A stretch of DNA of 37,757 nt, taken from contig JAFTTJ010000022.1 of NCBI GenBank assembly GCA_017466825.1, forward strand, positions 1-37,757, in the 5' to 3' direction. How positions within the stretch are numbered: position 1 is the first letter of the stretch; the number at the start of each line of letters is the position of its first letter. The DNA is from Clostridia bacterium. Its GTDB lineage: Bacteria > Bacillota > Clostridia > Christensenellales > Borkfalkiaceae. The notes below the pieces were generated by a model. That model was not told the DNA's origin. It ran no database searches and saw only the letters and a program-made list of their open reading frames with translations. The translations under genes and the position numbers were made by a program. Positions 7,881-28,324 of the stretch are shown here, piece by piece.

Positions 7881-7920
7881 AAAAAGTGGGGCTATATGTC
7901 GATTAACGGTTATTTTCGCG
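7881..7920 (+). repeat. 40-bp dispersed element, copy over the YigZ start codon
   Basis: It starts AAAAAGTGGGGCTATATGTC and matches the copy at 18567 at 33 of 40 positions. The ATG of the YigZ gene lies inside it, so the element supplies both the G-rich ribosome-binding region and the first codons. Confidence 0.6.
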
Positions 7921-8528
7921 TAAAAAACTCAATAGAAAAAGAAGTGGTTATCGAAAAGTCGCGCTTTATTGCTTATACTAAGATGACGCCGACGGAAGAA
8001 GACGCTAAGGCGTTTGTAGACTCTATCAAAAAAAAGCACCCCTTTGCAACTCACAACTGTTACGCCTACGTAACCGAAGGGGGCAAGGTAGCAAGGTTTT
8101 CCGACGACGGCGAACCGCAGGGCACGGCGGGTATCCCCATGCTCGAAGTTTTAAAAAATAGGGGGCTTAAAGATACAGCGGTCGTCGTTACCCGTTATTT
8201 TGGCGGGATTAAACTCGGCGCGGGCGGGCTCGTTAGGGCGTATTCGTCTACGACTTCTCTCGGGCTAGATACGGCTGGCGTTGAAGAAAACGTTTTGTCG
8301 AACGTATATAAAATTACCTTTGGCTACGACAAATATTCGTTATTTTTAAAGTTTATTGAAAAGTATAAACATAGCGTTATTTTTTCGGATTTTAACCAAG
8401 ACGTGCTAGTAAAAGTTGCCGTTCCTAGCCAAACAACTGACTTTTGCGACAAACTTATCGACTGTTTTTTGGGCAAAGTAGTAATTGAAGACGACGGGCA
8501 AACCTTCGTCGTTTACGGTGATTTATGA
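7896..8528 (+). CDS. YigZ/IMPACT family protein (UPF0029)
   Basis: A 210-residue member of the YigZ/YvyE family, related to eukaryotic IMPACT. The signature is clear: GEPQGTAGIPMLEVL followed by VVVTRYFGGIKLGAGGLVRA. The family has an RNase-like N-terminal fold and a C-terminal domain resembling elongation factor G domain IV, and is linked to ribosome-related functions; the exact role is unsettled. ATG 7896 puts the conserved KSRFIAY block at about residue 23, as usual. The last 4 bases overlap recX. Confidence 0.93.
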   Translation: MSINGYFRVKNSIEKEVVIEKSRFIAYTKMTPTEEDAKAFVDSIKKKHPFATHNCYAYVTEGGKVARFSDDGEPQGTAGIPMLEVLKNRGLKDTAVVVTRYFGGIKLGAGGLVRAYSSTTSLGLDTAGVEENVLSNVYKITFGYDKYSLFLKFIEKYKHSVIFSDFNQDVLVKVAVPSQTTDFCDKLIDCFLGKVVIEDDGQTFVVYGDL

Positions 8529-9148
8529 AAAAAATAACTGACATAAAACCGCAGGTTAAAGCGCCGACAAGGTGCAATATTTATTTAGATAACGTCTTTT
8601 ATTGTGGGCTAGAACTTGAAACCGTTATGAAAAACCGCCTTAAAATCGGTCAGGAAGTAGAGCCTAGTTTTTTAGACGAAATTCAATCCGAATCTGAACT
8701 TATCCAGGCTACGGAAAAGGCGCTCGCTTTGATTTCAAAGAGCCAAAAAACCCAAAAGCAGGTAAAGGACTACCTACTTAAAAAGGGGTATACCGAGTCC
8801 ACCGCCGAAAGGGTTATACAAAAACTTTTGGACTATAAATATTTATCCGACGGCGATTACGCAAGCCAATACGCCCGTTCTCAAAGTAAAACCAAGGGCA
8901 AAAAACTTATCGGTTTAGAACTTAGAAAAAGGGGCGTTTCGCAAGAAGATATATCCCAAGCGGTTGAAAATTTAGACGACCAAACCGAAGTTGCGGTTAA
9001 AGTTGCTCAAAAATACCTTAAAAATAAGCAAAAAGATAAGGCTAACACTTTTAAATGTTATAAATATTTGCTCTCTAAGGGCTTTGATTACGACGTGGCT
9101 AAAACCGCTGTCGAAAGGGTAGGAAGCATTGAAGACGATATACTTTGA
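8525..9148 (+). CDS. recX: Regulatory protein RecX
   Basis: RecX binds the RecA filament and modulates recombination and the SOS response. The 207-residue protein has a roughly 60-residue N-terminal domain, then tandem three-helix RecX repeats. These include QTQKQVKDYLLKKGYTE-like sequence, the SDGDYASQYARSQSKTKGKK block and LRKRGVSQEDISQAV. Its start overlaps the YigZ stop (ATGA) and its 3' end overlaps birA by 20 bases, so the three are translationally coupled. recA is not in the window. Confidence 0.93.
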   Translation: MKKITDIKPQVKAPTRCNIYLDNVFYCGLELETVMKNRLKIGQEVEPSFLDEIQSESELIQATEKALALISKSQKTQKQVKDYLLKKGYTESTAERVIQKLLDYKYLSDGDYASQYARSQSKTKGKKLIGLELRKRGVSQEDISQAVENLDDQTEVAVKVAQKYLKNKQKDKANTFKCYKYLLSKGFDYDVAKTAVERVGSIEDDIL

Positions 9149-9794
9149 AGAGATTTCTTCAACAAACGATTATCTTAAAAATTTAGATAGCGAAGAAGAC
9201 GTTTTGGCTATCGCAAAGCGTCAAACGGGCGGTCGAGGAACGAAAGGTCGCTCGTTTATTTCTGCCGAAGGGGGGGTGTATCTTTCACTTTTGCGCCTAA
9301 ACCCGTGTAAGGCGGAAGATTGCTTTTCGATTATGATGAATTCGGCCGTTGCGGTAGTTAAAACCCTGCACGCCTTTGATATAAAGGCAAAAATAAAATG
9401 GCCCAACGATATTTTGGTAGACGGCAAAAAAATTTGTGGTATTTTAATTGAAAACGTCTTTTCGGGCGAGATGGTCGCTCGCTCGATAGTCGGCATAGGA
9501 CTTAACGTAAACAACGACCTTGCCAAGGAAATTGAAGATATTGCAACTTCAACTAAAATCATTTTAAATAAAGAACTTTCACCCCCGACCGTAACGGCAA
9601 CGCTTTGCTATAATCTCTATCAAGACTACGGATTTGAAGATTACTCTCGCCACCTGCTTTTCGTCGGTGAAGAAGTGACGATAATCACTCAAAAGTCCGC
9701 CTATAAGGCGTTTATCGACCAAATACTGCCAAACGGCAACTTAAAGACAAAGGACGGGAAAGTGTTTTCGGCAGGTGAAATTTCAATACGGTAG
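9129..9794 (+). CDS. birA: Biotin--[acetyl-CoA-carboxylase] ligase without a DNA-binding domain
   Basis: The enzyme activates biotin to biotinyl-AMP and attaches it to a lysine of biotin carboxyl carrier domains. Seen are SSTND near the N-terminus, the GGRGTKGR biotin/ATP-binding loop (about residues 34-41), and KWPNDILVDGKKICGILIEN. It is 221 residues, lacking the N-terminal HTH of bifunctional BirA, so it should be enzyme only. The start is a TTG at 9129 preceded by AGGAAG inside the end of recX; no in-frame ATG would keep the N-terminal substrate motifs. A terminator follows. Confidence 0.92.
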   Translation: MKTIYFEEISSTNDYLKNLDSEEDVLAIAKRQTGGRGTKGRSFISAEGGVYLSLLRLNPCKAEDCFSIMMNSAVAVVKTLHAFDIKAKIKWPNDILVDGKKICGILIENVFSGEMVARSIVGIGLNVNNDLAKEIEDIATSTKIILNKELSPPTVTATLCYNLYQDYGFEDYSRHLLFVGEEVTIITQKSAYKAFIDQILPNGNLKTKDGKVFSAGEISIR

Positions 9795-9801
9795 TACTAA
9801 G

Positions 9802-9836
9802 AAAGTCTTTTCTTTATTCAAAAGAAAAGACTTTTT
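9802..9836 (+). terminator. Intrinsic terminator after birA
   Basis: A 14-bp stem (AAAGTCTTTTCTTT / AAAGAAAAGACTTT) has a short loop and is followed by further T. It closes the gene run that begins at 5225. Confidence 0.9.
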
Positions 9837-9873
9837 ATATGCTAGCAATTTACAAAAATTTTACGTTGCAGAA

Positions 9874-9902
9874 TTGCCTTTGTTATCAAATCATAGTATA
9901 AT
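9874..9902 (+). promoter_or_regulatory. Promoter of the two-component system
   Basis: TTGCCT (9874-9879), 17-base spacer, TATAAT (9897-9902). The start codon of the regulator is only 18 bases past the -10, so the leader is very short. Confidence 0.8.
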
Positions 9903-9919
9903 AGATTAAAGGAGTGATT

Positions 9920-10582
9920 ATGAAGAGTTTAATTTATATCGTAGAAGACGACGAAGGAATAAGAGCGGTATACGAAGGCGCTTTTGAAGGCATTTATAAA
10001 GTTAAGAGTTTTGAACGGGCTAGCGATTTTTTTGAAGAGTATGAAAAAGTTCAACCCGATTTAGTAATTTTGGACTTGATGCTACCTGATATGGACGGCA
10101 ACGCTATTTTGAAAAAGATTAGGGAAACTAACGAGCGCATGCCCGTAATTATCGTGAGCGCAAAGACTGACGAAACGAGTTTTGTTGACGGCTTAAACGA
10201 CGGCGCGGACGATTATATGGCAAAACCTTTTTCAGTTAAAGAACTTATAGCAAGGGTAAATACTAATTTAAGGCGCGCAAGTTTATATTTTACTCAAGCC
10301 GAAGGCTTTACGTTGGACTCGAATTTATTCAAGGCGTTTTACCAAGGAAAGGATTTGGGGCTAACTTTAAAGGAATTTAATTTATTAAAAACGCTTGTGC
10401 AAAAGGGTGGACGAACGGTTACTAGAGAAGAACTTTTTAAAGACGTTTGGGGTGAAAATTTTATTGGCGAAACCCGTACGGTAGACGTGCACGTGGCGTC
10501 GCTTAGAGATAAAATAAACGGTGCGGGCGGTGTAAATAAAATCGTTACCGTGCGCGGTGTGGGATATAGGTTTGAAAACTGA
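9920..10582 (+). CDS. OmpR/PhoB-family response regulator
   Basis: A 220-residue response regulator. The receiver domain has the acidic pair D10/D11, phospho-acceptor D52 in LVILDLMLPDMDG, S80 and K102 in MAKPF. The C-terminal winged-helix domain ends in the typical TVRGVGYRFEN. I chose ATG 9920, which has AAGGAG five bases upstream, over an in-frame GTG at 9914 that would overlap that Shine-Dalgarno. Its stop overlaps the kinase ATG by one base, so the two are translated together. The signal and target genes cannot be read from the sequence. Confidence 0.93.
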   Translation: MKSLIYIVEDDEGIRAVYEGAFEGIYKVKSFERASDFFEEYEKVQPDLVILDLMLPDMDGNAILKKIRETNERMPVIIVSAKTDETSFVDGLNDGADDYMAKPFSVKELIARVNTNLRRASLYFTQAEGFTLDSNLFKAFYQGKDLGLTLKEFNLLKTLVQKGGRTVTREELFKDVWGENFIGETRTVDVHVASLRDKINGAGGVNKIVTVRGVGYRFEN

Positions 10583-12285
10583 TGAAAGGTAAGATATTTT
10601 TAAGATTTTTTATCATAACGGCGCTAACCGCCCTAGTCGTATTTTTGGTCGGGCTTTTAGCCGTGTCGATAACGACTAATAATTTAGTTAAAGAAAGGTT
10701 GCAAGCCGAAACGAGATTGGTGTGCTTACTCGTCAATGAAGAAAGCGATTACAACAAGTTTGAAGCCTACTTCAATAACGACGAATTCCGTACGACTATT
10801 ATTGATTTAAACGGTGACGTTTTACACGAAAGCGACGTAAACGAAAGCCTTGAAAACCACTCTAACCGACAGGAATTTATACTTGCATTACAAGGCAAAA
10901 GTGAGCCTATAGAGCGATATTCGGACACTTTGAAATGCAATATGACCTATTACGCGCAAATGACAACGCTAAATAGCGGTGAACAAATAGTAATAAGGCT
11001 CGCGCTAAAAAGCAGTTTTATTTCAGACTACGCGCTAGTTACTTTGCCCCTTCTTGCCGTGGTGCTTATAGCAACTCTCGTAGCATCCGTCGTGTTTGCA
11101 ACTATGCAGGCAAAAACGGTTGCAAACTGCATTAACGAAGTTGGAAAAAGCCTTAAGAGTTTAAACGAAGGAACGTATCTTCCTATAAGCGCCGACGCTA
11201 GCGATAAAGAATTAGTCGCCGTTTACGACCAAATTAACGAACTGAGCGTTTCGCTACTTTCGTATATAGTAAAGGAAGAATTAGAGCGTAAAAAACTCGA
11301 TTCGGTGCTTTCAAACGTTTCGCAAGGCATAATTGCGCTAACTCAAAAAAACACAATCGCCTTCGTCAATAAATCGGCAAAACAACTATTCCTTGCACAA
11401 GAAGACTTAAACAAAAAGCATATTTCTTTATTGATTAAAGACGACGAACTTTGTAAAAAGATAGAGGGGCTTTTAGGAGAAGATATCATTTTTGAAAGCG
11501 AATTTTGCCAAAAAATACTTTCAATTTCGCTTAAAAAGACGGTCGACAGCACGCTTACGCGCACTTTTTCAAATATTATAATCATAACCGACGTAACTAT
11601 CGAAAAACAAATCGCAAAGCAAAAAAGCGAGTTTTTTGCAAACGCTTCTCACGAACTCAAAACGCCCGTTACCGTTATGCAAGGGCTTTCGGAAATTTTA
11701 CTTGAAAAGAATTTAGACGAGTTTACTCACGGTCAAATCGAGCGTATTTATAAGGAAAGTCAGCGCCTTTCCGCGCTTATTTCGGACATGCTAAAACTTA
11801 GCAAATTAGAGCGTGATAAGCAGTCCGCCGACGAGCGTGAAACTGTTGAAATTAAAAAGGTTACGGAAGAAGTTTTAAACGAACTTTCACCCAAAATCAC
11901 GCAAAAGCAAATTGCCGTTAGCGTAGTCGGCGAAGGCTCGTTATTTGCCACACAAAAGCACGTTTACGAACTTATAGGCAACCTTTTGTCTAATGCGATA
12001 AATTATAATAAGGTTGGCGGAAAGGTCGAAACGCGAATAATTAGCGAAAAAGATTTGCTCGCGATAGAAGTTGAAGATACGGGTATCGGCATAGAGAGCG
12101 AGCATATACCAAGACTTTGCGAACGCTTTTATAGAGTAGATAAATCACGCTCGAAAAAGACGGGTGGAACGGGGCTTGGACTTGCAATCGTCAAGCACGT
12201 TTGCGCCCTTTACGGCGGTGAAATAACCATACGAAGTCAGGTAGGCAAAGGCACTATCGTAAGGATTGAAATACCAAAAAGATAA
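10582..12285 (+). CDS. PhoR-like sensor histidine kinase
   Basis: A 567-residue membrane kinase that phosphorylates the regulator encoded just upstream. TM1 is about 9-31, an extracytoplasmic sensor domain covers about 32-150, and TM2 is about 151-173. A linker (HAMP-like position) and a PAS-like domain at about 235-345 follow. The HisKA block has the phospho-acceptor H357 in ASHELKTPVTVMQG. The HATPase has the N box (NLLSNAINYNK), DTGIGIES and GGTGLGLAIVKH. The architecture is that of PhoR/WalK-type kinases; phosphate sensing is not shown. Confidence 0.93.
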   Translation: MKGKIFLRFFIITALTALVVFLVGLLAVSITTNNLVKERLQAETRLVCLLVNEESDYNKFEAYFNNDEFRTTIIDLNGDVLHESDVNESLENHSNRQEFILALQGKSEPIERYSDTLKCNMTYYAQMTTLNSGEQIVIRLALKSSFISDYALVTLPLLAVVLIATLVASVVFATMQAKTVANCINEVGKSLKSLNEGTYLPISADASDKELVAVYDQINELSVSLLSYIVKEELERKKLDSVLSNVSQGIIALTQKNTIAFVNKSAKQLFLAQEDLNKKHISLLIKDDELCKKIEGLLGEDIIFESEFCQKILSISLKKTVDSTLTRTFSNIIIITDVTIEKQIAKQKSEFFANASHELKTPVTVMQGLSEILLEKNLDEFTHGQIERIYKESQRLSALISDMLKLSKLERDKQSADERETVEIKKVTEEVLNELSPKITQKQIAVSVVGEGSLFATQKHVYELIGNLLSNAINYNKVGGKVETRIISEKDLLAIEVEDTGIGIESEHIPRLCERFYRVDKSRSKKTGGTGLGLAIVKHVCALYGGEITIRSQVGKGTIVRIEIPKR

Positions 12286-12298
12286 ATAGCGGTAAAAA

Positions 12299-12326
12299 AA
12301 GCGGTCGACCTATTGGGCGACCGCTT
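12299..12326. terminator. Hairpin after the histidine kinase
   Basis: AAGCGGTCG / CGACCGCTT is a 9-bp stem; TGCGTTTTA follows. It is the first of two stems between convergent genes. Confidence 0.6.
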
Positions 12327-12340
12327 GCGTTTTATGCTTT

Positions 12341-12370
12341 AAAAGCCTTCCCCGCTTGGGGAAGGCTTTT
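12341..12370. terminator. Strong bidirectional terminator
   Basis: A perfect 13-bp stem AAAAGCCTTCCCC / GGGGAAGGCTTTT has a GCTT loop and A/T tracts on both sides. It can serve the kinase gene (+) and the SPFH/RHH operon (-). Confidence 0.9.
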
Positions 12371-12403
12371 AACGTATTCTGATTATAAACGTTAAACCCA
12401 CGC

Positions 12404-12577
12404 TTATTTATCTTCTTGTTTGCCTTTTGATTTCTTTCTTTTTTTAACGCACTCGTTAAGCAAAAATTCTATTTGCCCGTTTACTGAGCGGAAGTCGTCT
12501 TCTGCCCAGCGCATAAGGTCGTCGTATAATTTTTCGCTTATTCGTAGGGCGATTTGTTTCTTTCCGCCGTCAGTCAT
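12404..12577 (-). CDS. Small ribbon-helix-helix (Arc-like) protein
   Basis: The gene encodes 57 residues, beginning MTDGGKKQIALRISEKLYDD and ending in a Lys-rich tail. The pattern of a short beta strand (KQIALRI), helix (EKLYDDLMRWAEDD) and second helix (SVNGQIEFLLNECV) is that of Arc/MetJ-type ribbon-helix-helix DNA-binding proteins. It begins one base after the stop of the SPFH gene, so the two form an operon. It could autoregulate the operon through the direct repeats at 13683-13701. It is too short for length-filtered ORF calling. Confidence 0.82.
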   Translation of the reverse strand: MTDGGKKQIALRISEKLYDDLMRWAEDDFRSVNGQIEFLLNECVKKRKKSKGKQEDK

Positions 12578-12578
12578 T

Positions 12579-13580
12579 TTAGTACAAACTTCCCGAATTT
12601 ACTACGGGTTGAGCGTCGCGGTTACCGCAAAGAACAACCAAAAGATTTGAAACCATTGCCGCTTTTCTCTCTTCGTCGAGTTCAACGCAACCGCTGTCTT
12701 TAAGTCTTGCAAGCGCCATTTCAACCATGCCCACAGCGCCGTCAACGATCATCTTTCTCGCGTCGATAATAGCCGACGCTTGTTGGCGCTGAAGCATAAC
12801 TGCGGCGATTTCGGGCGCGTACGCAAGGTAGGTGATGCGCGCTTCGATAATTTCAATGCCCGCGTCGTTTACTCTTGACTGAATCTCATCCTTAATTCTG
12901 TTTGCAACGACTTCGCTCGAACCCCTTAAACTGCCTTCGTCGGCAACGCCGTCACCGGTCGTGTCAACGCCGGGCGCAACGTCGTAGGGGTAAATTTTTA
13001 CGATATTTCTGAGCGCGCTATCGCATTGAAGGGATAAATATTCCTTGTAGTTGTCTACGTTGAAAACGGCTTTAGCCGTGTCAACAACCTTCCACATAAC
13101 TGCAATTCCTATTTCAACGGGGTTGCCAAGGCAGTCGTTGATTTTTTGACGGGAATTGTTTAACGTCATTATCTTTAAGGAAATCTTTTTGTCAACGAAA
13201 GGCGTGGGCGAGCCTTCCGTGTCGATTGAAAATATCGATTCTTTCTTTTTGACGTCACCGCTTTGCGAAAGTTTAGTGTCCGCAGCGGGGTTTACTGCCG
13301 AGCAAAAGGGGTTTACCGCGTAAAAACCTTCGCCTTTGAGCGTGCCTACGTATTGACCGAAAAGGGTAAGCACGAGCGCTTCGTTAGGCTTTAAAATTTT
13401 AAGACCGACGAGCGGTATCCAGCTTATACAAGCGATAACCGCGCCTATTATTATAAAGACGGGGTTTTCGTTGTCTGAAATGCCGAAAACAAAAACCGCA
13501 ACGCCTATTAAAATAGCAATAACGCAACAAACTAGAGTTGCCATACCGTGTTTTTTGTCGTTAAGAACTTTTTCCTGCAT
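12579..13580 (-). CDS. SPFH/band-7 domain membrane protein
   Basis: A 333-residue protein with two N-terminal membrane segments (about 13-33 and 40-60). An SPFH (stomatin/prohibitin/flotillin/HflK) domain starts near LKPNEALVLTLFGQYVGTLKGEGF and runs to about 270, with a helical C-terminus (LQRQQASAIIDARKM) typical of band-7 oligomers. The family organises membrane microdomains or protease complexes; this subgroup's role is unknown. A good Shine-Dalgarno (AAGGAG) precedes its ATG. The leader contains two small hairpins and a parS-like site. Confidence 0.88.
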   Translation of the reverse strand: MQEKVLNDKKHGMATLVCCVIAILIGVAVFVFGISDNENPVFIIIGAVIACISWIPLVGLKILKPNEALVLTLFGQYVGTLKGEGFYAVNPFCSAVNPAADTKLSQSGDVKKKESIFSIDTEGSPTPFVDKKISLKIMTLNNSRQKINDCLGNPVEIGIAVMWKVVDTAKAVFNVDNYKEYLSLQCDSALRNIVKIYPYDVAPGVDTTGDGVADEGSLRGSSEVVANRIKDEIQSRVNDAGIEIIEARITYLAYAPEIAAVMLQRQQASAIIDARKMIVDGAVGMVEMALARLKDSGCVELDEERKAAMVSNLLVVLCGNRDAQPVVNSGSLY

Positions 13581-13663
13581 AGTTTTCTCCTTTTTGAAAA
13601 TTTATTTTAGGCAAAAGCGCCTAAAAATGATTATTTTTGGGCTTATTGCCCTACTAATGATAA

Positions 13664-13679
13664 AGTTACACGTGAAACT
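13664..13679. promoter_or_regulatory. Candidate parS site 2
   Basis: AGTTACACGTGAAACT matches the TGTTNCACGTGAAACA parS consensus except at its two end bases. It lies in the leader of the SPFH gene. Confidence 0.65.
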
Positions 13680-13682
13680 AAC

Positions 13683-13701
13683 GATATCATTTTGATATCA
13701 T
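13683..13701. promoter_or_regulatory. Direct-repeat operator candidate of the SPFH/RHH operon
   Basis: GATATCAT occurs twice with a 3-base gap (11-base period), immediately downstream of the minus-strand -10. Each half is itself palindromic. Ribbon-helix-helix repressors often bind such short tandem repeats. Confidence 0.5.
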
Positions 13702-13702
13702 A

Positions 13703-13731
13703 ATAATACACCATATTTTATGAATTGTCAA
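13703..13731 (-). promoter_or_regulatory. Promoter of the SPFH/RHH operon
   Basis: On the minus strand, TTGACA (13731-13726) is followed by 17 bases and TATTAT (13708-13703). The leader is about 115 nt. Confidence 0.85.
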
Positions 13732-13775
13732 TACTTTTCGTTAAAAATTTACCAAAATATTTTTCGCAAAAAAAT

Positions 13776-13797
13776 AAAGGGCAGTCACCTGCCCTTT
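13776..13797 (-). terminator. Terminator of the repeat lipoprotein gene
   Basis: AAAGGGCAG / CTGCCCTTT form a 9-bp stem with a 4-base loop. On the minus strand it is followed by ATTTTTTT, just past the stop at 13805. Confidence 0.88.
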
Positions 13798-13804
13798 AAA
13801 TAGG

Positions 13805-15427: not shown

Positions 15428-15464
15428 TTTTCCTTTCTCCTATTTTATAATTTGCGCAAAAGCG

Positions 15465-15729: not shown

Positions 15730-15740
15730 ATAGTTTATAA

Positions 15741-15770: not shown

Positions 15771-15834
15771 GATATAATGATTTTGCCACTTTGCACCTAT
15801 GTCAACAAATAATTCGCGTTTGGCATATTCGACT

Positions 15835-18566: not shown

Positions 18567-18606
18567 AAAAAGTTGGGCTATAGGTCGATTATCGAGTGTT
18601 TTTGCG
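18567..18606 (+). repeat. 40-bp dispersed element, copy in the thioesterase leader
   Basis: It starts AAAAAGTTGGGCTATAGGTC and continues GATTATCGAGTG, T-run, GCG. It overlaps one arm of the inverted repeat at 18575-18629. Confidence 0.65.
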
Positions 18607-20294: not shown

Positions 20295-20912
20295 TTATTC
20301 TGTTTTTAAACTTGACTCAAAGTCCTTTCCATCCGCGGTGAGCCCACGGGTTTTAATGGCGGTAATTTCGCCACCGCCGTAAATTTCAACCAATTTTTCG
20401 GTAAATTTTTCTATCCTTAGTCCGTTGCCAAACCCGATAACGCACGAAAGGTCGTCCCCTTTCCACTCTACCGAGTAAATAAGGTCGCGCGCATTTTTGG
20501 GCGTCCCGTCCTTTTTAGTAATAATGAACTCGTCTTTTGCCAAAAAATCCCTTTCGTCAAAGTGGTTTATTCCTTTAATAAGGTATTCCGCCTTGACAAT
20601 ATCGCTTGCAACCCCAACTTTTGCAGGGGTTTTCCAAGCGCCGACGCACTTTATTCCCCTAGGGCAATTTTCGTTGAATTTTTGCATGAACGAATCGGGA
20701 TTTTCGTCCGTTTCGACTTGGCAGTATTCAGCGTAACTCGGTATGCCGATACCCATAGGCGCGGACATATAAACGAGCATGTGCGGGTTAAATCCTTGTG
20801 AAAAGGCGACTTTTATACCCGCTCTGCGCATGGTTCTGCCAAAATGCCTTAAAATATCGAGATGGGCTAAAAATTCTGCGCCGTCCGTCTTTTGATACTT
20901 AAAAACTATCAT
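20295..20912 (-). CDS. DUF2344 / TIGR03936 family radical SAM-associated protein
   Basis: The gene encodes 205 residues, beginning MIVFKYQKTDGAEFLAHLDI. The conserved motifs GAEFLAHLDILRHFGRTMRRA and FSQGFNPHMLVYMSAPMGIG identify the family, which always accompanies the TIGR03960 radical SAM protein and is often fused to it. The function is undefined, with a role near ribosome or RNA modification suspected from context. I chose ATG 20912, which overlaps the upstream stop as ATGA, rather than an earlier in-frame start that would overlap by 37 bases. Confidence 0.9.
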   Translation of the reverse strand: MIVFKYQKTDGAEFLAHLDILRHFGRTMRRAGIKVAFSQGFNPHMLVYMSAPMGIGIPSYAEYCQVETDENPDSFMQKFNENCPRGIKCVGAWKTPAKVGVASDIVKAEYLIKGINHFDERDFLAKDEFIITKKDGTPKNARDLIYSVEWKGDDLSCVIGFGNGLRIEKFTEKLVEIYGGGEITAIKTRGLTADGKDFESSLKTE

Positions 20913-22678
20913 ACGTCGCACCCGTATACCTTTTGTATACCACACCCTTTACAACTTTTTTTGCAACTGCCCGTAACTTCGCCGGCGTACGCCTTTTTCC
21001 TTTCCTTTAAAAGGAATTTTTTATCTACGAAAACGTCTATAAAATCCCAGGGCAAAATCTCGTCTTCGCCCCACTCTCTCGTGTAGAATTTTTTATCTAC
21101 GCCCGTTTCTTCAAAGGCTTCGTTCCAAAGGGTTGCGTTGAATTTATCCGTCCAACCGTCAAAATAGCACCCTTTTTCGTACGCTCTTTGCAAAACTTTT
21201 CCCACTCGCCTATCGCCACGGGCAAGAACGGCTTCCATTTCGGATAGCGAAAAATCATTCCAACTAATCGTGGTGTTTTTCGAATAGAGCCTACTGCGCA
21301 AAATATCGACCTTTCGCTTTACTTCTTCTTCGCTTATCTGCCTTTCCCATTGGAAGGGGGTGAACGGCTTGGGGATAAAGGTCGACGCCGACACGCTTAT
21401 CCTAAGTCTTCTCGCGCGCTGAGGGTTTGCCGAGTAAATTTTGCGAATTTTGTCTACTATATCGCAAATACCGCCTACGTCTTCGTCCGTTTCGGTGGGA
21501 AGCCCGAACATAAAATAGAGTTTTATGCCCGTGTAGCCGTTGTCAAAGGCCATATTAAGCCCCCTTTCAACGTCTTCTTCGGTGATGTCTTTATTTATGA
21601 CGTCGCGCAGTCTTTGAGTGCCCGCTTCGGGGGCAAAGGTGAGCGAACTCTTTCTCGATTCTTGCACGAATTCGCCGTCGAAACTATCGAGTCTAAGCGA
21701 CGGGAGCGAAAGGTGCACGTCGCTCGGCAAAGCGTCTTTTAAAGCGGGGATAAGGTCCTTTAAATAGGGGTAGTCGCCCGTCGAAAGACTGTTTAAACCG
21801 AGTTCGTCAAAACCCGAATTTTTAACGAGCGAACAGGCCTGCTCGGTGAGCGTTTTTACGCTCTTGTATCTAACGGGGCGGTATATAAAACCCGCTTGAC
21901 AAAATCTGCATCCCCTATAACATCCGCGCATTACTTCAATAACTGCTCTATCGAAAACCGACTCGCAATTTGGCACGGCTTGGCGCGCAGGAAAGGTTGC
22001 CCCGTCAAAGTCTTTCAGCAAGGCTTTTTTGATGGGTGTTTTAATAGAAAACCCGTCTATAAGTCCGTTATCTTTATATTTTACGTCTACAAGTGACGGA
22101 ACGTAAACGCCTTGAATAAGGCTTGCTTTTTGTAAAAATTCAGTTTTTGAAGACGTTTTTAATTTGAGATTTGCAAGTTCTTTCATGCTCTCTTCGCCGT
22201 CGCCGATGACGAAAATATCAATAAAATCGGCTAGCGGTTCGGGGTTTACGGCGCACGGGCCACCCGCTTGAATTATAGGAAATTCTTCCCCACGGTCTTC
22301 ACTTTTTAAGGGTATCCCCGCAAGGTCTAACATATACAAAATGGTCGTGTAACTCATCTCGTATTGAAGGGTAAAACCGAGCATATCGAAATCTTTAAGG
22401 GGCATTTTTAAATCGAGCGATTCAAGTAGCGTACCACTCTCTTTTAAAGCCTTGCCCATATCCGTCCAAGGCGCAAAACACCTATCGCAAACCGCGCCTT
22501 CAACGCGGTTTATAACGTCTGCAACGATACGTATACTTAGGTTGCTCATTGCAACTTCATACACGTCGGGAAAACATATACAAAAATTAAATTTTGATTT
22601 TTCTATTTGCGGAACGCCGAACTCGCCGCCGATATATCTCGACGGTTTTTCGACCTTTTTCAAAATCTTAGCGTCCAA
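20909..22678 (-). CDS. TIGR03960-type radical SAM protein with B12-binding-like domain
   Basis: A 589-residue radical SAM enzyme of unknown substrate. The N-terminal region (about 30-200) resembles a cobalamin-binding domain (FPDVYEVAMSN, QAGGPCAVNPEPLADF). The 4Fe-4S cluster motif is C253-x3-C257-x2-C260 in RGCYRGCRFCQAGF. TFAPEAGTQRLRD and the GLPTETDED block follow. The C-terminus ends with a Cys-rich tail, CKKSCKGCGIQKVYGC, which may bind a second cluster. It leads the operon with the DUF2344 and rng genes. Confidence 0.93.
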   Translation of the reverse strand: MDAKILKKVEKPSRYIGGEFGVPQIEKSKFNFCICFPDVYEVAMSNLSIRIVADVINRVEGAVCDRCFAPWTDMGKALKESGTLLESLDLKMPLKDFDMLGFTLQYEMSYTTILYMLDLAGIPLKSEDRGEEFPIIQAGGPCAVNPEPLADFIDIFVIGDGEESMKELANLKLKTSSKTEFLQKASLIQGVYVPSLVDVKYKDNGLIDGFSIKTPIKKALLKDFDGATFPARQAVPNCESVFDRAVIEVMRGCYRGCRFCQAGFIYRPVRYKSVKTLTEQACSLVKNSGFDELGLNSLSTGDYPYLKDLIPALKDALPSDVHLSLPSLRLDSFDGEFVQESRKSSLTFAPEAGTQRLRDVINKDITEEDVERGLNMAFDNGYTGIKLYFMFGLPTETDEDVGGICDIVDKIRKIYSANPQRARRLRISVSASTFIPKPFTPFQWERQISEEEVKRKVDILRSRLYSKNTTISWNDFSLSEMEAVLARGDRRVGKVLQRAYEKGCYFDGWTDKFNATLWNEAFEETGVDKKFYTREWGEDEILPWDFIDVFVDKKFLLKERKKAYAGEVTGSCKKSCKGCGIQKVYGCDV

Positions 22679-22710
22679 AATTATACTCCCGTAATTTTAC
22701 TCACCATTAT

Positions 22711-22739
22711 ATTATAACATAATATAAGAAAATTTGCAA
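22711..22739 (-). promoter_or_regulatory. Promoter of the radical SAM-DUF2344-rng operon
   Basis: On the minus strand TTGCAA (22739-22734), 17 bases, TATAAT (22716-22711); the leader is about 26 nt. Confidence 0.75.
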
Positions 22740-22742
22740 GGC

Positions 22743-22830
22743 TTATAGGTAGCGACCAAAAATTTTAAAAAACGGCTATTTTTTGGCTTATTTACTAAGA
22801 ATTTTCTACTTTTTTAGTAATCGCCTATAA
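22743..22830. repeat. Three-stem (cloverleaf-like) inverted-repeat structure
   Basis: TTATAGG-ta-GCGA (22743-22755) pairs with TCGCCTATAA (22821-22830). Between them sit a CCAAAAA/TTTTTGG hairpin (22756-22786) and a TTACTAA/TTAGTAA hairpin (22792-22820), each abutting the closing stem. Confidence 0.5.
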
Positions 22831-22887
22831 AAAATTTTTATTTTTTAAATATTTAAATGAAAACTCGGTTTAAAAAGTCTTTTTTGC

Positions 22888-22915
22888 ATAGCGCAAAAAA
22901 TTTATTGCGCTATAT
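22888..22915. repeat. TAGCGCAA palindrome upstream of ftsH
   Basis: TAGCGCAA and TTGCGCTA face each other around a short AT loop. The same arms form the larger palindrome at 23155-23180. Confidence 0.5.
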
Positions 22916-23001
22916 TTTAAGCCTAAATATACCCTTCGCGCCATCAGTTTTAGGCTGTTTAAACAATAATTTACGGGTTTTTTCTTTGACGACAGCTCTT
23001 T

Positions 23002-23017
23002 TGATTCACGTGAAACT
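23002..23017. promoter_or_regulatory. Candidate parS site 3
   Basis: TGATTCACGTGAAACT matches TGTTTCACGTGAAACA at 14 of 16 positions. It lies 2.9 kb from parA in an intergenic region. Confidence 0.65.
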
Positions 23018-23098
23018 AGCGCAAAACCTACTTTTTTAGCAAGGCTAAAATATCGGTTTAGTTTTACGCATTACTGCGCTATTTTTATACTAAAGCGG

Positions 23099-23127
23099 TT
23101 GACATTTTTGGGTTGTTAATATATAAT
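23099..23127 (+). promoter_or_regulatory. Distal ftsH promoter
   Basis: TTGACA (23099-23104), 17-base spacer, TATAAT (23122-23127): a perfect consensus lying about 540 bases upstream of the ftsH start. Confidence 0.85.
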
Positions 23128-23154
23128 AATTACAAGCGCAGATATAGTCGGCGC

Positions 23155-23180
23155 AATAGCGCAAAAATATTTTTGCGCTA
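23155..23180. repeat. Perfect 26-bp palindrome at the start of the ftsH leader
   Basis: ATAGCGCAAAAAT is followed directly by its exact reverse complement. It starts about 20 nt after the expected transcription start of the distal promoter. Confidence 0.75.
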
Positions 23181-23407
23181 TATTAAGCGCAAACTCCAAA
23201 AGGATAAAATATAAACTTGTCGAAAGATGGGATATTTTTTAAAATTTTGAATAAAATTGTATATAGGGGCAAATTAAGGTGCCGAAAAATATCGGCGTAA
23301 AAGGTATTTTGTAAAAACTTTTTGCCTTAAAACTGCTCTAAAATAAAAAATTATGAATTTTGCTTAAGTGAAAACTGTGTTAAAATTTTTAATAATTTTT
23401 TATTTAT

Positions 23408-23436
23408 TTGCCAATTTGCTTTACCTATGGTAAAAT
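23408..23436 (+). promoter_or_regulatory. Proximal ftsH promoter
   Basis: TTGCCA (23408-23413), 17 bases, TAAAAT (23431-23436); leader about 225 nt. Confidence 0.6.
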
Positions 23437-23507
23437 AGCATTGTTAAATAAACAAGCGCAACGGCGTTTTTTAAGTTAAGTTTTTTCAAAAATTTGCTTA
23501 AAAACCT

Positions 23508-23547
23508 AAAAAGTCTGCCTATAAGTCAATTATCGGCGTTTTTTGGG
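23508..23547 (+). repeat. 40-bp dispersed element, copy in the ftsH leader
   Basis: AAAAAGTCTGCCTATAAGTC, then AATTATCGGCG and a T-run, in the same orientation as the copies at 7881 and 18567. Confidence 0.65.
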
Positions 23548-23666
23548 GCAAAAACAAGGCCTTTTGCGCTATATACGAAAGTTGTTTGGCTCACCTAAAA
23601 AGTTAATGATAAATAAAATTTTGCTTATCATTATATATTTATAAGGCTCGCCAAAAAGGAGAATTC

Positions 23667-25742
23667 ATGAGAAAATCATCAAAAGCAACGATAATAATCA
23701 CGCTTATCGTCGTGGCGTTAGCGGCGTTCGTGCTCATATTATTATCAACGGGCTCGTCGACGACTTTGCCGACTACCGAGTTTTTCAAAAAAGCCGGTAT
23801 TAAGTACGAAACGGTTACCGTAGGCGAAGGCGAAAACGCAACTTCCGAAACGGTTATCGTCTACGATAAATCAAAGTCGGAAATCGACCAAATCGTAATC
23901 GACGTCTATACCCTTCGCGGTTATAAGGCTTCGGGCGTAAACGGAAAACTCACTCTCGTTTACGAGTCAAACCTTTATCCTTCAACCATTTTTGAAGAAG
24001 AATTCGACGTTTTAAAGAAAAACGGCGTAGTTTTAGAGTGTACCGACCCCAATGCGGGCTCGTTCTTCTCAAATTTGATAATGCCTCTTCTCATTTCAGT
24101 CGTCGGCATTATAATCTTCGTCATTTTGATTCGTCAAGCAAACGGCGGAGCAAAGGGCACGATGGATTTTGGTAAGACCAAGGCAAGAGTAAATCAAAAC
24201 ATTAAAGTAAGATTTTCAGACGTAGCGGGCGCTGAAGAAGAAAAGGAAGAACTTCAAGAAGTAGTAGAATTCCTTAAAAATCCCCGTAAATTCTCGGGAC
24301 TTGGCGCAAAAATCCCCAAAGGCGTACTTTTAGTAGGCCCTCCGGGAACGGGTAAAACTCTTTTTGCAAAGGCTGTTGCAGGCGAAGCGAACGTTCCGTT
24401 CTTCTCGATAAGCGGTTCGGATTTCGTTGAAATGTTCGTCGGCGTAGGCGCGAGCAGAGTAAGAGATCTTTTCAACATGGCTAAAAAGAGCATGCCTTGT
24501 ATCGTTTTCATTGACGAAATCGACGCCGTTGGTAGACACCGTGGCGCAGGTCTTGGCGGTGGTAACGACGAAAGAGAGCAGACTTTGAACCAACTTCTCG
24601 TTCAAATGGACGGTTTTGACGCTAACGAAGGTATTATCATAATCGCCGCAACCAACAGAGCGGACATCTTAGACCCTGCGCTTATGCGTCCGGGTAGATT
24701 TGACCGTCAAATTTACGTAAATATGCCCGACGTTAGGGGTAGAGAAGCGATAATTAAGGTACACGCAAGAAATAAGCCCCTTGCCCCCGACGTAAACTTT
24801 AAGACTTTGGCGAGAATGACGGCAGGTTTTTCGGGCGCGGATATCGCAAACCTTTTAAACGAAGCGGCTATTTTGGCGGCTCGTAAAAACCAAAAGGCGA
24901 TAACCAACGTAGATCTTTACGAAGCGATTAACAAAGTTATTATCGGACCGCAGAAAAAATCAAGGCTCGTTACCGAAACGGATAAGAGGATTACCGCTTA
25001 CCACGAAGCGGGACACGCAATTCTTGCAAGGCTTTTACCCCATTGTGATCCCGTTCACGAAGTTTCGATTATCCCCCGCGGTATGGCGGCAGGTTACACC
25101 ATGACAAGGCCAGATAGTGACGATAACCATATCGAAAAGAACAAACTTTTAGACGATATCGTAATGACTCTTGGCGGTAGAGTAGCCGAAGAACTCATTA
25201 TTAAGGATATTTCCGCAGGCGCGTCTAACGATATCAGCGTCGTTACCGCAAGGGCGAGAAAAATGGTTACCGAGTGGGGTATGAGTGATAAGGTCGGCCC
25301 TGTAAACTACGGCGGAAGCGACCAAGTATTTATCGGTAGAGATATGCAAACGAGAGCAAATTATAGCGAAGCAATGGCTACCGTTATCGACGAAGAAATT
25401 CAATCTATTATCAAAAACGCTCATCAAAAAGCAACCGAACTTTTAACCCAAAACAAGAGCCTTTTAGACGTAATGGCAAGGCTTTTGATTGAAAGGGAAA
25501 CTATTTATCAAGAAGAAGTAGACCTTATTATGGAAGGAAAAGACGTAAAAACTATCATGGAAATTATGGACAGTAAAGACCATGAAAGAACGGCTAACCC
25601 CTTCAAAAGGTACGACAATAAGCCCGCAGAGCCCACCGCTCCCCAAAGCGTAGACGGCGCAACTAACGCCCCCGACGCAAGCGCGCCCACAGCGCCGAGC
25701 GATCCTACTCAAAAGAGCGACTCTGACGGCGACAAAGCCTAA
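23667..25742 (+). CDS. ftsH: ATP-dependent zinc metalloprotease FtsH
   Basis: A membrane-anchored AAA+ protease that degrades misfolded membrane proteins and regulatory substrates. It has 691 residues: TM1 about 8-27, an extracytoplasmic domain at about 30-133, and TM2 about 135-155. The AAA module follows with Walker A GPPGTGKT (224-231), Walker B IVFIDEID (279-286) and the second region of homology [18 protein letters not shown]. The zinc site is HEAGH (446-450). The last 45 residues are a low-complexity Pro/Ala/Ser/Asp tail. Shine-Dalgarno AAAGGAG precedes ATG 23667. A bidirectional terminator hairpin follows the stop. Confidence 0.97.
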
Positions 25743-25749
25743 AATCTAT

Positions 25750-25777
25750 CCGCCGTTTTGAATTTTCAAAACGGCGG
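25750..25777 (+). terminator. Hairpin terminator after ftsH
   Basis: CCGCCGTTTTGA / TCAAAACGGCGG form a perfect 12-bp stem with a 4-base loop. The T-run after it is weak. Confidence 0.7.
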
Positions 25778-25875
25778 TTAAGCGTATTTTAAACTATTTT
25801 CGTTAATAAATTAAACTGATTTTTCGCGTTATTTATCGGCAAAAAGCCAAAATAAAACTTGCTTTCGGGGTGGGT

Positions 25876-26646
25876 ATGACTAAGATTATTTGCTTTACAA
25901 ACCAAAAGGGCGGTGTGGGTAAAACCACTACTTGCGTCAATATTTCGGCGTGCCTTTCGGCTTTGGGCAAAAAGGTGCTTATCGTAGATTTATCTCCGCA
26001 AGGCAATGCGACGAGCGGACTTGGAATTGATAAGCATAAACTTGAAAAGTCGGTCTATAACTCGATTATCGACGGTTTTCCGCTTGAAAAAGTCGTTTTA
26101 AATACGCAGTTTAAAAACCTATTTTTAGCCCCGTCCAACCTAGATTTAGCAGGTGCGGAAATCGAACTTGCAACTCTTAGCGGTAGAAACAAGCGCCTTT
26201 TATCCGCATTAGAGCCGATAAAGGAAAACTACGATTTTATAATGATAGACTGTCCGCCGACTACGGGTACGCTTACTTTAAACGCATTGACGGCGTCGGA
26301 TAGAGTTATCTTGCCGATAAGCCCCGATTTTTTTGCAATGGAAGGGGCTTGCCAAACGGTAAACCTTATAAAACTTATAAATAAAATCAATCAAAACTTG
26401 TCGCTTTGTGGCGTCGTTTTGACGGCTTACGACCAAAGGGCGCTAGTTTATAGACAAATTTTGAGCGAGATTAAAGAGCATTTTGGCGACAAGGTTTTTA
26501 AAACCGTTATTCCCCAAAACGTCAGGGTTGCCGAAGCCCCGAGCCACGGCTTGCCCGTAATTTATCACGCGCCTAACTGTATTGGCGCAAAGGCATATTT
26601 TGCAGTAACCAAAGAACTTATTAAAAGGGAGAAAAACAATGGGTAA
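25876..26646 (+). CDS. parA: Chromosome partitioning ATPase ParA/Soj
   Basis: A Walker-type ATPase that, with ParB and parS, segregates the origin region and can influence DnaA. The deviant Walker A is KGGVGKTT (11-18). Walker A' and B are seen in VLIVDLSPQGNATSGLG and FIMIDCPPTTGTLTLNAL. I chose ATG 25876, preceded by GGGG, over an in-frame GTG at 25870; this gives 256 residues, the usual Soj length. Its end overlaps parB by 8 bases. A dispersed-element-like stretch is within codons 57-70 (KSVYNSIIDGF). Confidence 0.95.
   Translation: MTKIICFTNQKGGVGKTTTCVNISACLSALGKKVLIVDLSPQGNATSGLGIDKHKLEKSVYNSIIDGFPLEKVVLNTQFKNLFLAPSNLDLAGAEIELATLSGRNKRLLSALEPIKENYDFIMIDCPPTTGTLTLNALTASDRVILPISPDFFAMEGACQTVNLIKLINKINQNLSLCGVVLTAYDQRALVYRQILSEIKEHFGDKVFKTVIPQNVRVAEAPSHGLPVIYHAPNCIGAKAYFAVTKELIKREKNNG
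26044..26083 (+). repeat. Dispersed-element match inside parA
   Basis: GAAAAGTCGGTCTATAACTC followed by GATTATCGACGGTTTT resembles the intergenic element over its whole length. It encodes normal ParA sequence, so chance remains possible. Confidence 0.35.
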
Positions 26647-27565
26647 ATACAATATCGGACTTGGAAAAGGACTTTCGGCGCTCTTTGCCGAAAATCAGGA
26701 TAGCGAGCAATTATCGTTTGATACCCCAACCGAAAAAGTGGGCGTACCCGTAGACTCTCGCATAACTTTTTTAAAGATTAGCGACGTTTACCCAAACCCC
26801 AACCAACCGCGTAAAAAATTCGATGGTAGCGCCCTTAACGACTTGGCGGAATCTATAAAAAAACACGGCGTTATTCAACCGATAGTCGTCAGCCAAACTG
26901 ATACGGGCTATATGATTATCGCCGGCGAAAGAAGATACCGCGCGAGCAAACTCGCAGGGCTTGAAACCGTGCCTACGATCATCCGCAATTACGGCGATAG
27001 GCAAATTAAAGAAATAGCCCTTATCGAAAACTTGCAAAGGGAAGACCTTAACCCCATTGAAGCGGCAAACGCAATGAAACTTTTAATGGACGAATTTAGG
27101 CTCACGCAAGAAGAACTCGCCGAAAGAATAGGTAAAAGCCGTTCAGTCGTAGCAAATACCGTTAGACTTTTAAATCTTTCGCCTACGGTAAGAGAATACG
27201 TTATGGAAAACAAACTCACCGCAGGGCACGGCAGGGCGCTCGTTACCCTTCCACAGCAAGAGCAGGAACTTCTCGCCGCAAAGATTATCACTAAGAGTAT
27301 GAGCGTAAGGGAAGTCGAAAAGGCTGTAAAGGACTATTTCAATCCACCCCAAGAAAAACCGCAAAAGGTGAGAAGGGAACTCTCGGTTGAACTTAAAGAT
27401 TTAATCGAAAGAATGCAGAGAAGTTTCGGTACGAAGGTTTCGGCAATTGGTAACGACAGAAAGGGCAGGATTTATATCGACTACTATACGAGAGACGATT
27501 TAGACCGCCTTTGCGACATTTTAGATTGCGTTGAAAAACATAAAACTTTAGTAGACGAATATTGA
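26639..27565 (+). CDS. parB: Chromosome partitioning protein ParB/Spo0J
   Basis: A CTP-dependent DNA clamp that loads at parS and spreads, recruiting ParA and SMC. The N-terminus reads MGKYNIGLGKGLSALFAENQ, typical of chromosomal ParB. The CTP-binding box GERRYRA is at 96-102 and IENLQREDLNPIEAA follows. The parS-reading HTH includes LTQEELAERIGKSRSVVANT. It has 308 residues with a C-terminal dimerisation region. ATG 26639 overlaps the parA stop and has an AAAAGGGAG ribosome site. Three parS-like sites are present in the same window. Confidence 0.95.
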   Translation: MGKYNIGLGKGLSALFAENQDSEQLSFDTPTEKVGVPVDSRITFLKISDVYPNPNQPRKKFDGSALNDLAESIKKHGVIQPIVVSQTDTGYMIIAGERRYRASKLAGLETVPTIIRNYGDRQIKEIALIENLQREDLNPIEAANAMKLLMDEFRLTQEELAERIGKSRSVVANTVRLLNLSPTVREYVMENKLTAGHGRALVTLPQQEQELLAAKIITKSMSVREVEKAVKDYFNPPQEKPQKVRRELSVELKDLIERMQRSFGTKVSAIGNDRKGRIYIDYYTRDDLDRLCDILDCVEKHKTLVDEY

Positions 27566-27567
27566 TA

Positions 27568-27594
27568 AAAAGCCCGCCAAAAGGTGGGCGTTTT
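27568..27594 (+). terminator. Terminator of the parAB operon
   Basis: AAAAGCCCGCC / GGTGGGCGTTTT with an AAAA loop; the stem ends in TTTT. Confidence 0.85.
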
Positions 27595-27620
27595 ATATCT
27601 AATTAAGGTTTGCTTTGTTA

Positions 27621-27655
27621 TTCAAAAATAGGCGATAATCGACTTATAGGGGCAC
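27621..27655 (-). repeat. 40-bp dispersed element, inverted copy before the Mrr-like gene
   Basis: Read on the minus strand it is CCCCTATAAGTCGATTATCG then CCTATTTTTG. On the plus strand its TATAGGGGC end supplies the Shine-Dalgarno of the downstream gene. Confidence 0.6.
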
Positions 27656-27657
27656 TT

Positions 27658-28149
27658 ATGATAAACATTTTGACAAATACCGCCTTTATTTTGGGCGGAA
27701 TTACCGTCGTCGGCGCGTTTTTGCTAATAGTTGGGGCGCTAGTTTTAATACGGTTTATAATTTTTAACGTCAAGTGGTCTATAAATAGAATAGACAAAAT
27801 GAAAGGATCGGAATTTGAAACCTTTATGAAGGAAGTCTACGTCTTGCTTGGGTATAGCGTAGAGCAGACTAAAATTTCGGGCGACCAAGGTATTGATTTA
27901 ATAGTAAAACGGTTTTTTAAAAAGACGGGTATACAATTAAAACGTTATAGTCAAAAGGTTGGCAACTCCGCCGTGCAAGAAGCGGCGGCAGGCAAGAAGT
28001 ATTATAAACTAGATAAAGTTTGCGTGCTTACGACGTCCTATTTTACGCAATCGGCAAAAGATTTAGCAAAGGCAAACGGGGTTGAACTTTTAGACCGTGA
28101 CGATTTACAAAAACTACTTGAAAAAGCAAAGAAAAAAGATAAGAAATAA
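27658..28149 (+). CDS. Membrane-anchored Mrr-like restriction endonuclease domain protein
   Basis: A 163-residue protein with an N-terminal membrane region (about 6-43, one or two segments). A cytoplasmic PD-(D/E)xK domain of the Mrr_cat type follows: MKGSEFETFMKEVYVLLGYS, then GDQGIDLIV with the catalytic Asp, and GIQLKRYSQKVGNSAVQEA with the Q-x-K pair. Such membrane-tethered Mrr domains are widespread in Firmicutes and are of unclear function (DNA quality control or defence). ATG 27658 has AGGGG six bases upstream; a longer TTG start would run through the repeat. A strong terminator follows. Confidence 0.85.
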   Translation: MINILTNTAFILGGITVVGAFLLIVGALVLIRFIIFNVKWSINRIDKMKGSEFETFMKEVYVLLGYSVEQTKISGDQGIDLIVKRFFKKTGIQLKRYSQKVGNSAVQEAAAGKKYYKLDKVCVLTTSYFTQSAKDLAKANGVELLDRDDLQKLLEKAKKKDKK

Positions 28150-28165
28150 CTATTTTTTAACCATA

Positions 28166-28195
28166 AAAAACGCCCCGACGAAAGTCGGGGCTTTA
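28166..28195. terminator. Terminator after the Mrr-like gene
   Basis: GCCCCGAC / GTCGGGGC with a GAAA tetraloop and flanking A and T tracts. Confidence 0.88.
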
Positions 28196-28202
28196 AAATT
28201 TT

Positions 28203-28253
28203 GCGCGGAAAAACAAAAACAAATATCTGAAGAACGTTCCGCGCTTTTTTATT
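28203..28253 (+). terminator. Second hairpin with T-run
   Basis: GCGCGGAA and TTCCGCGC are separated by about 28 bases, then TTTTTTATTTTT. It resembles a terminator with a long loop, or the 3' end of a small RNA. Confidence 0.45.
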
Positions 28254-28284
28254 TTTGTAAGATAAAAGCCATTGATTTATAGGC

Positions 28285-28324
28285 TAAAAGTGGCGGTATA
28301 AGTCGATTATTCGCCGTTTTACAT
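28285..28324 (+). repeat. 40-bp dispersed element, copy after the nifU gene
   Basis: TAAAAGTGGCGGTATAAGTC, then GATTATTCGCCG and TTTT. It lies in the gap between convergent genes. Confidence 0.55.

Follow-up and report, generated by a model that had tools for sequence, protein, structure and literature searches.

The dispersed motif and its copies in the window

The stretch of DNA considered here, referred to as the window, comprises the whole of positions 1 to 37,757 of contig JAFTTJ010000022.1 from a Clostridia bacterium of the family Borkfalkiaceae (assembly GCA_017466825.1). The source is a metagenome-assembled genome (MAG; G000 below) of 1.65 Mb that is 83.6% complete, and its gene calls come from a simple purpose-made caller. 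Scattered between and within the genes of the window are copies of a dispersed motif with the 17-bp core CTATAAGTCGATTATCG. A first-pass annotation had described eight copies as a 40-bp element; the motif is present in all eight listed stretches, and scoring with a weight matrix raises the number to 14 by adding copies at 5589, 9691, 10897, 11952, 22047 and 31203. The matrix was used with a cut-off of at least 12 bits and was trained on part of the hits that it counts. The reversed sequence of the window gave 2 copies, so that the two or three weakest window copies (16.7-19.4 bits) may be chance. The copies, with their matrix scores, are as follows.

5589..5624, plus strand: copy in a gene for a BspA-type leucine-rich repeat (LRR) protein (LRR_5); 36.3 bits
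7882..7917, plus strand: copy overlapping the start of open reading frame (ORF) 7896-8528 (UPF0029); 34.2 bits
9691..9726, plus strand: copy in a lipoate/biotin ligase family gene; 34.6 bits
10897..10932, plus strand: weak copy in a histidine kinase gene, may be chance; 17.0 bits
11952..11987, minus strand: weak copy in a histidine kinase gene, may be chance; 16.7 bits
15835..15870, plus strand: copy at the 3' end of a minus-strand gene; 37.4 bits
17865..17900, plus strand: copy in an acyl-ACP (acyl carrier protein) thioesterase gene, antisense; 34.2 bits; in G001 too, gapless
18568..18603, plus strand: intergenic copy; 36.8 bits
22047..22082, plus strand: copy in a radical SAM (S-adenosylmethionine) gene, antisense; 25.0 bits
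23509..23544, plus strand: intergenic copy upstream of an FtsH-like gene; 39.1 bits
26045..26080, plus strand: copy in a ParA-like gene; 38.4 bits
27624..27659, minus strand: copy downstream of the ORF that follows parA (parB judging by position, unscanned); 41.1 bits, the top score in the window
28286..28321, plus strand: intergenic copy between convergent genes; 36.9 bits
31203..31238, minus strand: weak copy in a gene; 19.4 bits

The reported identity of the copies at 7881 and 18567 at 33 of 40 positions, counted by eye, holds. The former had been placed between genes or at a gene edge and actually overlaps the start of a reading frame.

Abundance across the genome

With up to 3 mismatches allowed, the core matches 12 times in the window, where 0.19 matches are expected; 0 of 100 shuffles reached that number. 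The lack of an excess over chance across the genome had been named beforehand as the result that would refute the element, and the opposite is clearly seen: with up to 2 mismatches, the 1.65-Mb genome holds 165 matches (99 forward and 66 reverse, contig orientation being arbitrary), and the reversed-pattern control holds none. The weight matrix and the placement of copies were evaluated on a 438-kb sample comprising the window and parts of three contigs. This sample contains 124 copies (64 plus, 60 minus), compared with 7 when the sequence is reversed and 2 in Markov-simulated sequence, which suggests a density of approximately one copy per 3.5 kb. The predominance of the plus strand is a local property of the window (11:3), since no such bias is seen on the remaining three contigs of the sample (21:24, 19:19 and 13:14). 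Strand-biased functions of the Chi-like or FtsK-orienting type are disfavoured by this even orientation on three of the four contigs. An Rfam scan of the window gave no match. The genome-wide extent of the motif, its intragenic half, its second spelling, its phased flanks and the retention of its positions between species are all additions to the first-pass annotation.

Anatomy of the element

The anatomy was derived from 408 distinct copies of at least 20 bits (98 from G000, 276 from named genome records and 34 from relatives, with a Psychrobacter locus omitted). The motif is real and dispersed, as had been described, and its conserved block measures 36 bp rather than 40, running from an A-tract at -10 through a T-tract at +25, with weaker phased A/T tracts beyond. 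These A/T peaks extend on both flanks in steps of about 11 bp, a helical spacing, and show approximate mirror symmetry around motif position +7 to +7.5 (correlation 0.74 and 0.70). They are 2.2-4.3 times those at 1500 AT-matched motif-free sites; as such sites give a quarter to under half of the peak height, the phasing of the flanks is partly genomic background. The core is an imperfect palindrome, CTATAA-GTCGA-TTATCG, and the 36-bp block carries 29.9 bits of information, where 12.8 bits would locate 450 sites. Covariation of the arms as a hairpin is near the shuffled level in nine registers, the best register giving a small effect (z 3.5; 2.49 vs 2.33 of 6 pairs) and the next z 2.8. By eye, the left arm of the copy at C27:134307 in G000 and in its orthologues resembles the 3' half of an upstream hairpin, the arms of which, also by eye, change together between some species.

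Placement relative to genes

Copies had been thought to be mainly intergenic with two exceptions, and genic copies turn out to be usual in the family, accounting for 70 of the 124 in the 438-kb sample. Density per 10 kb is nevertheless lowest in genes, at 1.9, compared with 15.4 in convergent gaps, 7.6-7.8 in co-directional gaps and 4.5 in divergent gaps. Orientation relative to transcription is even, both between co-directional genes (20 same, 18 opposite) and within genes (33 and 37). Among the copies of at least 16 bits (n=109), 24 are centred 0-25 bp past a stop codon and 11 are situated 25-50 bp ahead of a start, with 2 expected in each case. The post-stop copies occur in both orientations (14 same, 10 opposite) and, to judge from the distances, 18 of the 24 have the stop codon inside the A-tract or core.

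Origin and conservation between species

Orthologue tests covered six genic copies and one syntenic block. Comparison of the six genic copies with genus mates was gapless in 25 of 26 cases; by score, the 26 comprised 11 relatives below 10 bits (all 11 gapless), 4 at 10-16 bits and 11 of at least 16 bits in which the motif is kept. Genic copies are gained and lost by substitution. For the genic copies compared, the gapless alignments exclude an origin by insertion. In the window, the site at 22047..22082 aligns gapless in 12 relatives, of which 3 score at least 20, 2 score 10-13 and 7 score below 10 bits. The site at 26045..26080 likewise aligns gapless in four relatives, with scores of up to 10.3, and the core of the copy at 27624..27659 is found at the same place in two species (G006 and G008).

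The syntenic block was compared with five species and contains nine copies of G000's own, six of which could be placed. Two of the six placed sites are kept in all five species, three in four of five and one in none, and orientation is preserved. For one of the three unplaceable copies, G010 has a copy in a loosely matching interval. Relatives also carry block copies that are absent from G000 (two in G001 and one each in G002, G006 and G008). In 22 kept pairs, which were picked for the motif on both sides and therefore favour core identity, the core is 91-93% identical and the ungapped flanks 33-66%; at third codon positions, 107 of 144 match within the block, compared with 209 of 480 next to it.

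Distribution and spellings

The motif was found in all 15 genus members tested, with 4 to 164 matches, and is near zero in most sister genera, a pattern that looks as if it were readily lost. Low-copy genus mates (G003, G004 and G012; 41-68 kb sampled) have few, partly altered copies. Beyond the genus, G026 (genus g13) has 93 matches and G029 (g16) has 72 in the CTATAAGTCGATTATCG spelling; G028 (g15, 57% complete) has 6, G021 (g8) has 3 and other genera of the family have 0-2. Three genera of one family thus carry the motif clearly. Their sisterhood is not shown by a ComEC tree, in which branches are long and genus order is not resolved. Among 396 genomes drawn across the order, a draw that did not contain G029 and other genus mates, only G000 and G026 had more than one match. 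Among the matches listed for the exact pattern, 102 of 104 stretches are titled as Clostridia or Clostridiales MAGs, many titles name the gut or rumen of goat, sheep, deer, buffalo or reindeer, and one Psychrobacter hit is apparently due to chance.

In G029 the commonest spelling is CTATAAGCCCGTTAT (13 of 59), found beside CTATAGGTCGATTAT (6) with the same flanks, and a pattern covering both spellings has 185 matches with a control of 0. The two coexist in that genome mostly as A at position 5 with CCCG and G at position 5 with TCGA or TCGG, together with some mixed forms. A de novo k-mer search for another spelling gave none in G020 (106 kb) or G021 (120 kb).

Motif-free stretches and foreign DNA

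The longest empty stretch, at C27:62.8-103 kb, is a prophage with 0 copies over 40 kb. This assignment is based on matches to portal, major head, tape measure, primase-helicase and polymerase proteins among 10 of 47 gene calls scanned, and GC content is approximately 0.50 in the sampled half. The tenth scanned gene, an edge methyltransferase, extends past the prophage gap and carries one copy. No motif hit was obtained in the viral_contigs collection. Depletion from foreign DNA, a hallmark of the DNA uptake sequences (DUS) and uptake signal sequences (USS) of other bacteria, is accordingly seen in one prophage and in the viral scan. Other empty stretches, at C7:33-57, 90-102 and 144-180 kb, are non-phage by ten genes scanned, and some of the motif-empty stretches of C7 are long surface-protein or transport genes; genes longer than 3 kb hold 2 copies in 55.7 kb.

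Proposed interpretation as a self-DNA tag

The first-pass annotation had offered a protein-binding site, a regulatory RNA target or a REP-like (repetitive extragenic palindromic) element. Of these, a protein-binding site is the best general class. An RNA target or hairpin REP finds no support, given arms that hardly covary, the even orientation (20/18) and genic copies that arose without insertion. Within the general class, we tentatively favour, at less than even confidence, a self-DNA tag with a putative receptor. The motif matches uptake sequences in its abundance and over-specification, in the origin of its genic copies by substitution, in the stability of its positions between species, in its alternative spellings and patchy loss, and in being absent from a prophage; the lack of orientation bias relative to genes, together with the phased flanks, points in the same direction. 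The element would be a duplex DNA signal read by a sequence-specific, DNA-bending receptor when relatives exchange chromosomal DNA. Fragments bearing a good copy would be acquired preferentially, and copies would accumulate by substitution and recombination, in the manner of the Haemophilus and Neisseria uptake sequences.

Import would require machinery, and some of it is encoded. ComEC was detected in 31 of 37 and in 13 of 14 genomes and DprA in 19 of 20; these two proteins could form the inner part of the import route. The outer part would have to be of a new kind, because neither a competence pilus ATPase nor a clear ComEA was detected in most members. We infer the existence of the receptor, transfer as the driver and ComEC with DprA as the inner route. 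A more specific version, in which the motif would be a third, independently evolved self-DNA tag in Clostridia with no recognisable competence pilus, with pilus-free import of kin DNA and a DNA-wrapping receptor, is doubtful though conceivable. If true, self-DNA tagging would have evolved again in gut Clostridia, perhaps with different machinery. Whether the motif is a tag or a chromosome-organising site, its two spellings and the dwindling of copies inside a single genus provide a natural experiment for finding the reader protein.

A number of results weigh against a self-DNA tag, foremost those on machinery. The pilus ATPase ComGA/PilB (PF00437, the type II/IV secretion ATPase family) scored above the cut-off in only 1 of 15 genus members. 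The family passes in 2 of 24 genomes, strongly in G011, on a possibly foreign contig of 9.2 kb where the gene has PilC-like and EAL neighbours, and as a partial match of 33 bits in G026; 12 other genomes, G029 included, have only sub-cut-off matches. ComEA was above its cut-off, a strict one passed in 5 of 14 control genomes, in 0 of 15 family members and 0 of 10 genus members tested. It passes in 1 of 18 genomes, G037, which belongs to another family, and sub-threshold hits sit in ORFs of about 610-1200 aa. Since ComGA/PilB and ComEA mostly stayed below their cut-offs, we do not file the element under DUS or USS, and a classic uptake sequence as the first reading is weakened by the PF00437 and ComEA results. 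ComEC itself is short in the window genome (434-520 aa), where it lacks the beta-lactamase domain and lies beside a separate metallo-beta-lactamase-fold ORF (L039:7817-10059, on contig C27 of G000). It does not track copy number, being present in the low-copy G007 and G012, and was not found in G010 (81 copies, 80% complete). The ComEC frames detected in the motif-rich genera are short (501-546 aa), and several of those from motif-free genera are short as well.

The arrangement of copies also counts against the tag. After merging pairs that overlap within 40 bp, only 1 of 104 spacings in G000 is below 500 bp vs 16.6 expected, and 0 of 1000 simulations were as low; below 1000 bp there are 19 vs 28 expected (p 0.018). 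Avoidance below 500 bp recurs in G029 (6 of 60 vs 10.9 expected, p 0.03) and G026 (0 of 29 vs 3.5 expected, p 0.02), and under 1000 bp there is none in G029 (19 vs 19.9 expected). Inverted second cores or partners are not in excess around the 408 copies (18 vs 19 in equal control stretches). Finally, at both variable intergenic sites examined, the sole bearer of six genomes has about 40-65 bp more spacer, which looks like a gain in length and not a substitution. At C27:128349, a copy found only in G000, the spacer is about 45-65 bp longer than in five relatives, and at the site corresponding to C27:132709 of G000, where only G001 has a copy, the G001 spacer is some 40 bp longer than most. Spacer length also varies without the motif (G006). 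These two longer spacers suggest that some intergenic copies may be gained or lost along with a piece of spacer.

Alternative readings

The main rival, given slightly less confidence than the tag, is a chromosome-organising or topology site. A dimeric protein, either a lineage-specific nucleoid protein or gyrase, would bind the near-palindromic core and wrap approximately 100 bp of phased flanks, and weak selection favouring copies spread evenly over the chromosome, outside promoters, would maintain them. The mirrored A/T peaks, with flanks 2.2-4.3 times the AT-matched control, favour such a site, as do the even spacing below 500 bp in three genomes, a density that peaks between convergent genes (15.4 vs 7.7 co-directional and 4.5 divergent per 10 kb) and the failure to detect a complete uptake apparatus. 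According to portions of PMC6379681, the gyrase motif of E. coli shares this arrangement of a centre between periodic flanks. That motif is degenerate, however, in the same portions (PMC6379681), unlike this 30-bit site, and by A/T profile the annotated cut site of phage Mu ranks 898 of 73,144 in about 14 tries, or 7427 by flanks alone, so that the match is not significant. The patchy presence, the second spelling and the near absence from some genus mates would be odd for a housekeeping function, and the reader protein is still putative. A chromosome-organising site would be unusual in its length, specificity and number.

The motif is unlikely to be a tag spread by another form of biased transfer, such as the packaging start of a phage-like particle carrying host DNA. 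A drive-like over-specification and a long phased site would suit a DNA-wrapping packaging protein, but no such particle was identified, and one prophage and the viral collection lack the motif. Similarly improbable is a mobile repeat some 40 bp in length, either REP-like or resembling a miniature inverted-repeat transposable element (MITE), that inserts between genes, with genic copies of some other origin. The many dispersed, near-identical copies and the additional 40-65 bp of spacer in the sole bearers at the two variable sites would fit this explanation. It is opposed by the genic copies, which make up over half of the total and align gapless to motif-less relatives (11 of 11), insertions into genes being liable to purging in any event, and by the lack of a hairpin, the variation in spacer length without the motif (G006) and positions that are mostly stable between species. 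It is very improbable that the motif is a transcription terminator or another kind of RNA signal marking the ends of genes: the 24 copies just past stop codons, the A-run and T-run and a few inverted pairs or extra hairpins are outweighed by the use of both orientations after stops, the location of over half of the copies in genes, arms that hardly pair and a stop codon inside the motif in 18 of 24 cases.

Other features of the window

Several further features accompany the motif. A ParA-like gene, a downstream ORF and then an Mrr-type restriction endonuclease-like gene occupy 25870-28149, and a YidC-type gene lies at 2546-4222; the ParA-like region and the YidC-type gene suggest that the window is near the replication origin. 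A tandem array with a 126-bp unit in 2.6 copies is found at 35350-35680. Its word GACTGGGATGACCA is found as a single copy at six further sites of the sampled genome, which makes it a second family of dispersed repeats. GC-rich repeats in inverted orientation, comprising GGGGCTTGCTCCTCC and adjoining words, lie approximately 30 kb apart at 2235-2308 and 32257-32417; contigs C7 and C16 also contain GGGGCTTGCTCCTCC. The long spacer upstream of the FtsH-like gene contains a pair of near-identical palindromes, ATAGCGCAAAAA...TTGCGCTAT, at 22888-22916 and 23156-23184.

Comparison with known systems

REP elements and bacterial interspersed mosaic elements (BIMEs) are dispersed and often lie at gene ends. 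The Clostridia motif differs from these in that over half of its copies are genic, it has no stem-loop and the genic copies were not inserted.

The gyrase motif of E. coli, as outlined in part of PMC6379681, consists of a 36-bp centre with two flanks of 10.75-bp periodicity. Strong gyrase sites in E. coli and phage Mu resemble the Clostridia motif in the 36-bp centre, the symmetric periodic flanks and a preference for positions downstream of transcribed genes; the core of the Clostridia motif is nearly invariant, in contrast to the degenerate gyrase motif (PMC6379681, in part).

Sequence-specific uptake of self-DNA was described, in sections of a 2016 review, for species of two Gram-negative families, the Pasteurellaceae and Neisseriaceae (PMC5031613). 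No report of an uptake tag in Clostridia was found among the titles, abstract openings and top-ranked results of a literature search. DUS of the Neisseriaceae are, in excerpts of two sources, short, uninterrupted motifs of about 12-13 nt that the minor pilin ComP recognises (PMC12616744, PMC5031613), and their distribution has been used for finding integrative elements (PMC7371117, in part). The Clostridia motif shares with them the character of a genome-wide tag with dialects, which in DUS follow phylogeny (PMC3630211, in part); it differs in that its sequence is unrelated and a pilus was not found in most members.

The USS of the Pasteurellaceae are closer in form, with hundreds or more of copies, helically phased A/T tracts and two dialects in one family, judging from parts of PMC12616744 and PMC7811141. 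The core of the Clostridia motif is longer (15-17 bp vs 9), and the remaining differences add to the case against an uptake tag. Phased tracts are two-sided in the Clostridia motif, whereas the AT-rich regions of USS are described as lying downstream (PMC12616744, in part). Clostridia copies avoid each other, whereas close pairs are common in H. influenzae, where 23% of USS10 lie within 100 bp of another (PMC7811141, in part). The pilus ATPase, finally, was not found in most Clostridia genus members. Taking DUS and USS together, the hallmarks that were not observed are the competence pilus machinery and close or inverted pairs, and those that the Clostridia motif displays are hundreds of copies on both strands, depletion in one prophage and the viral scan, an origin of genic copies by substitution and, in G029, an altered spelling.

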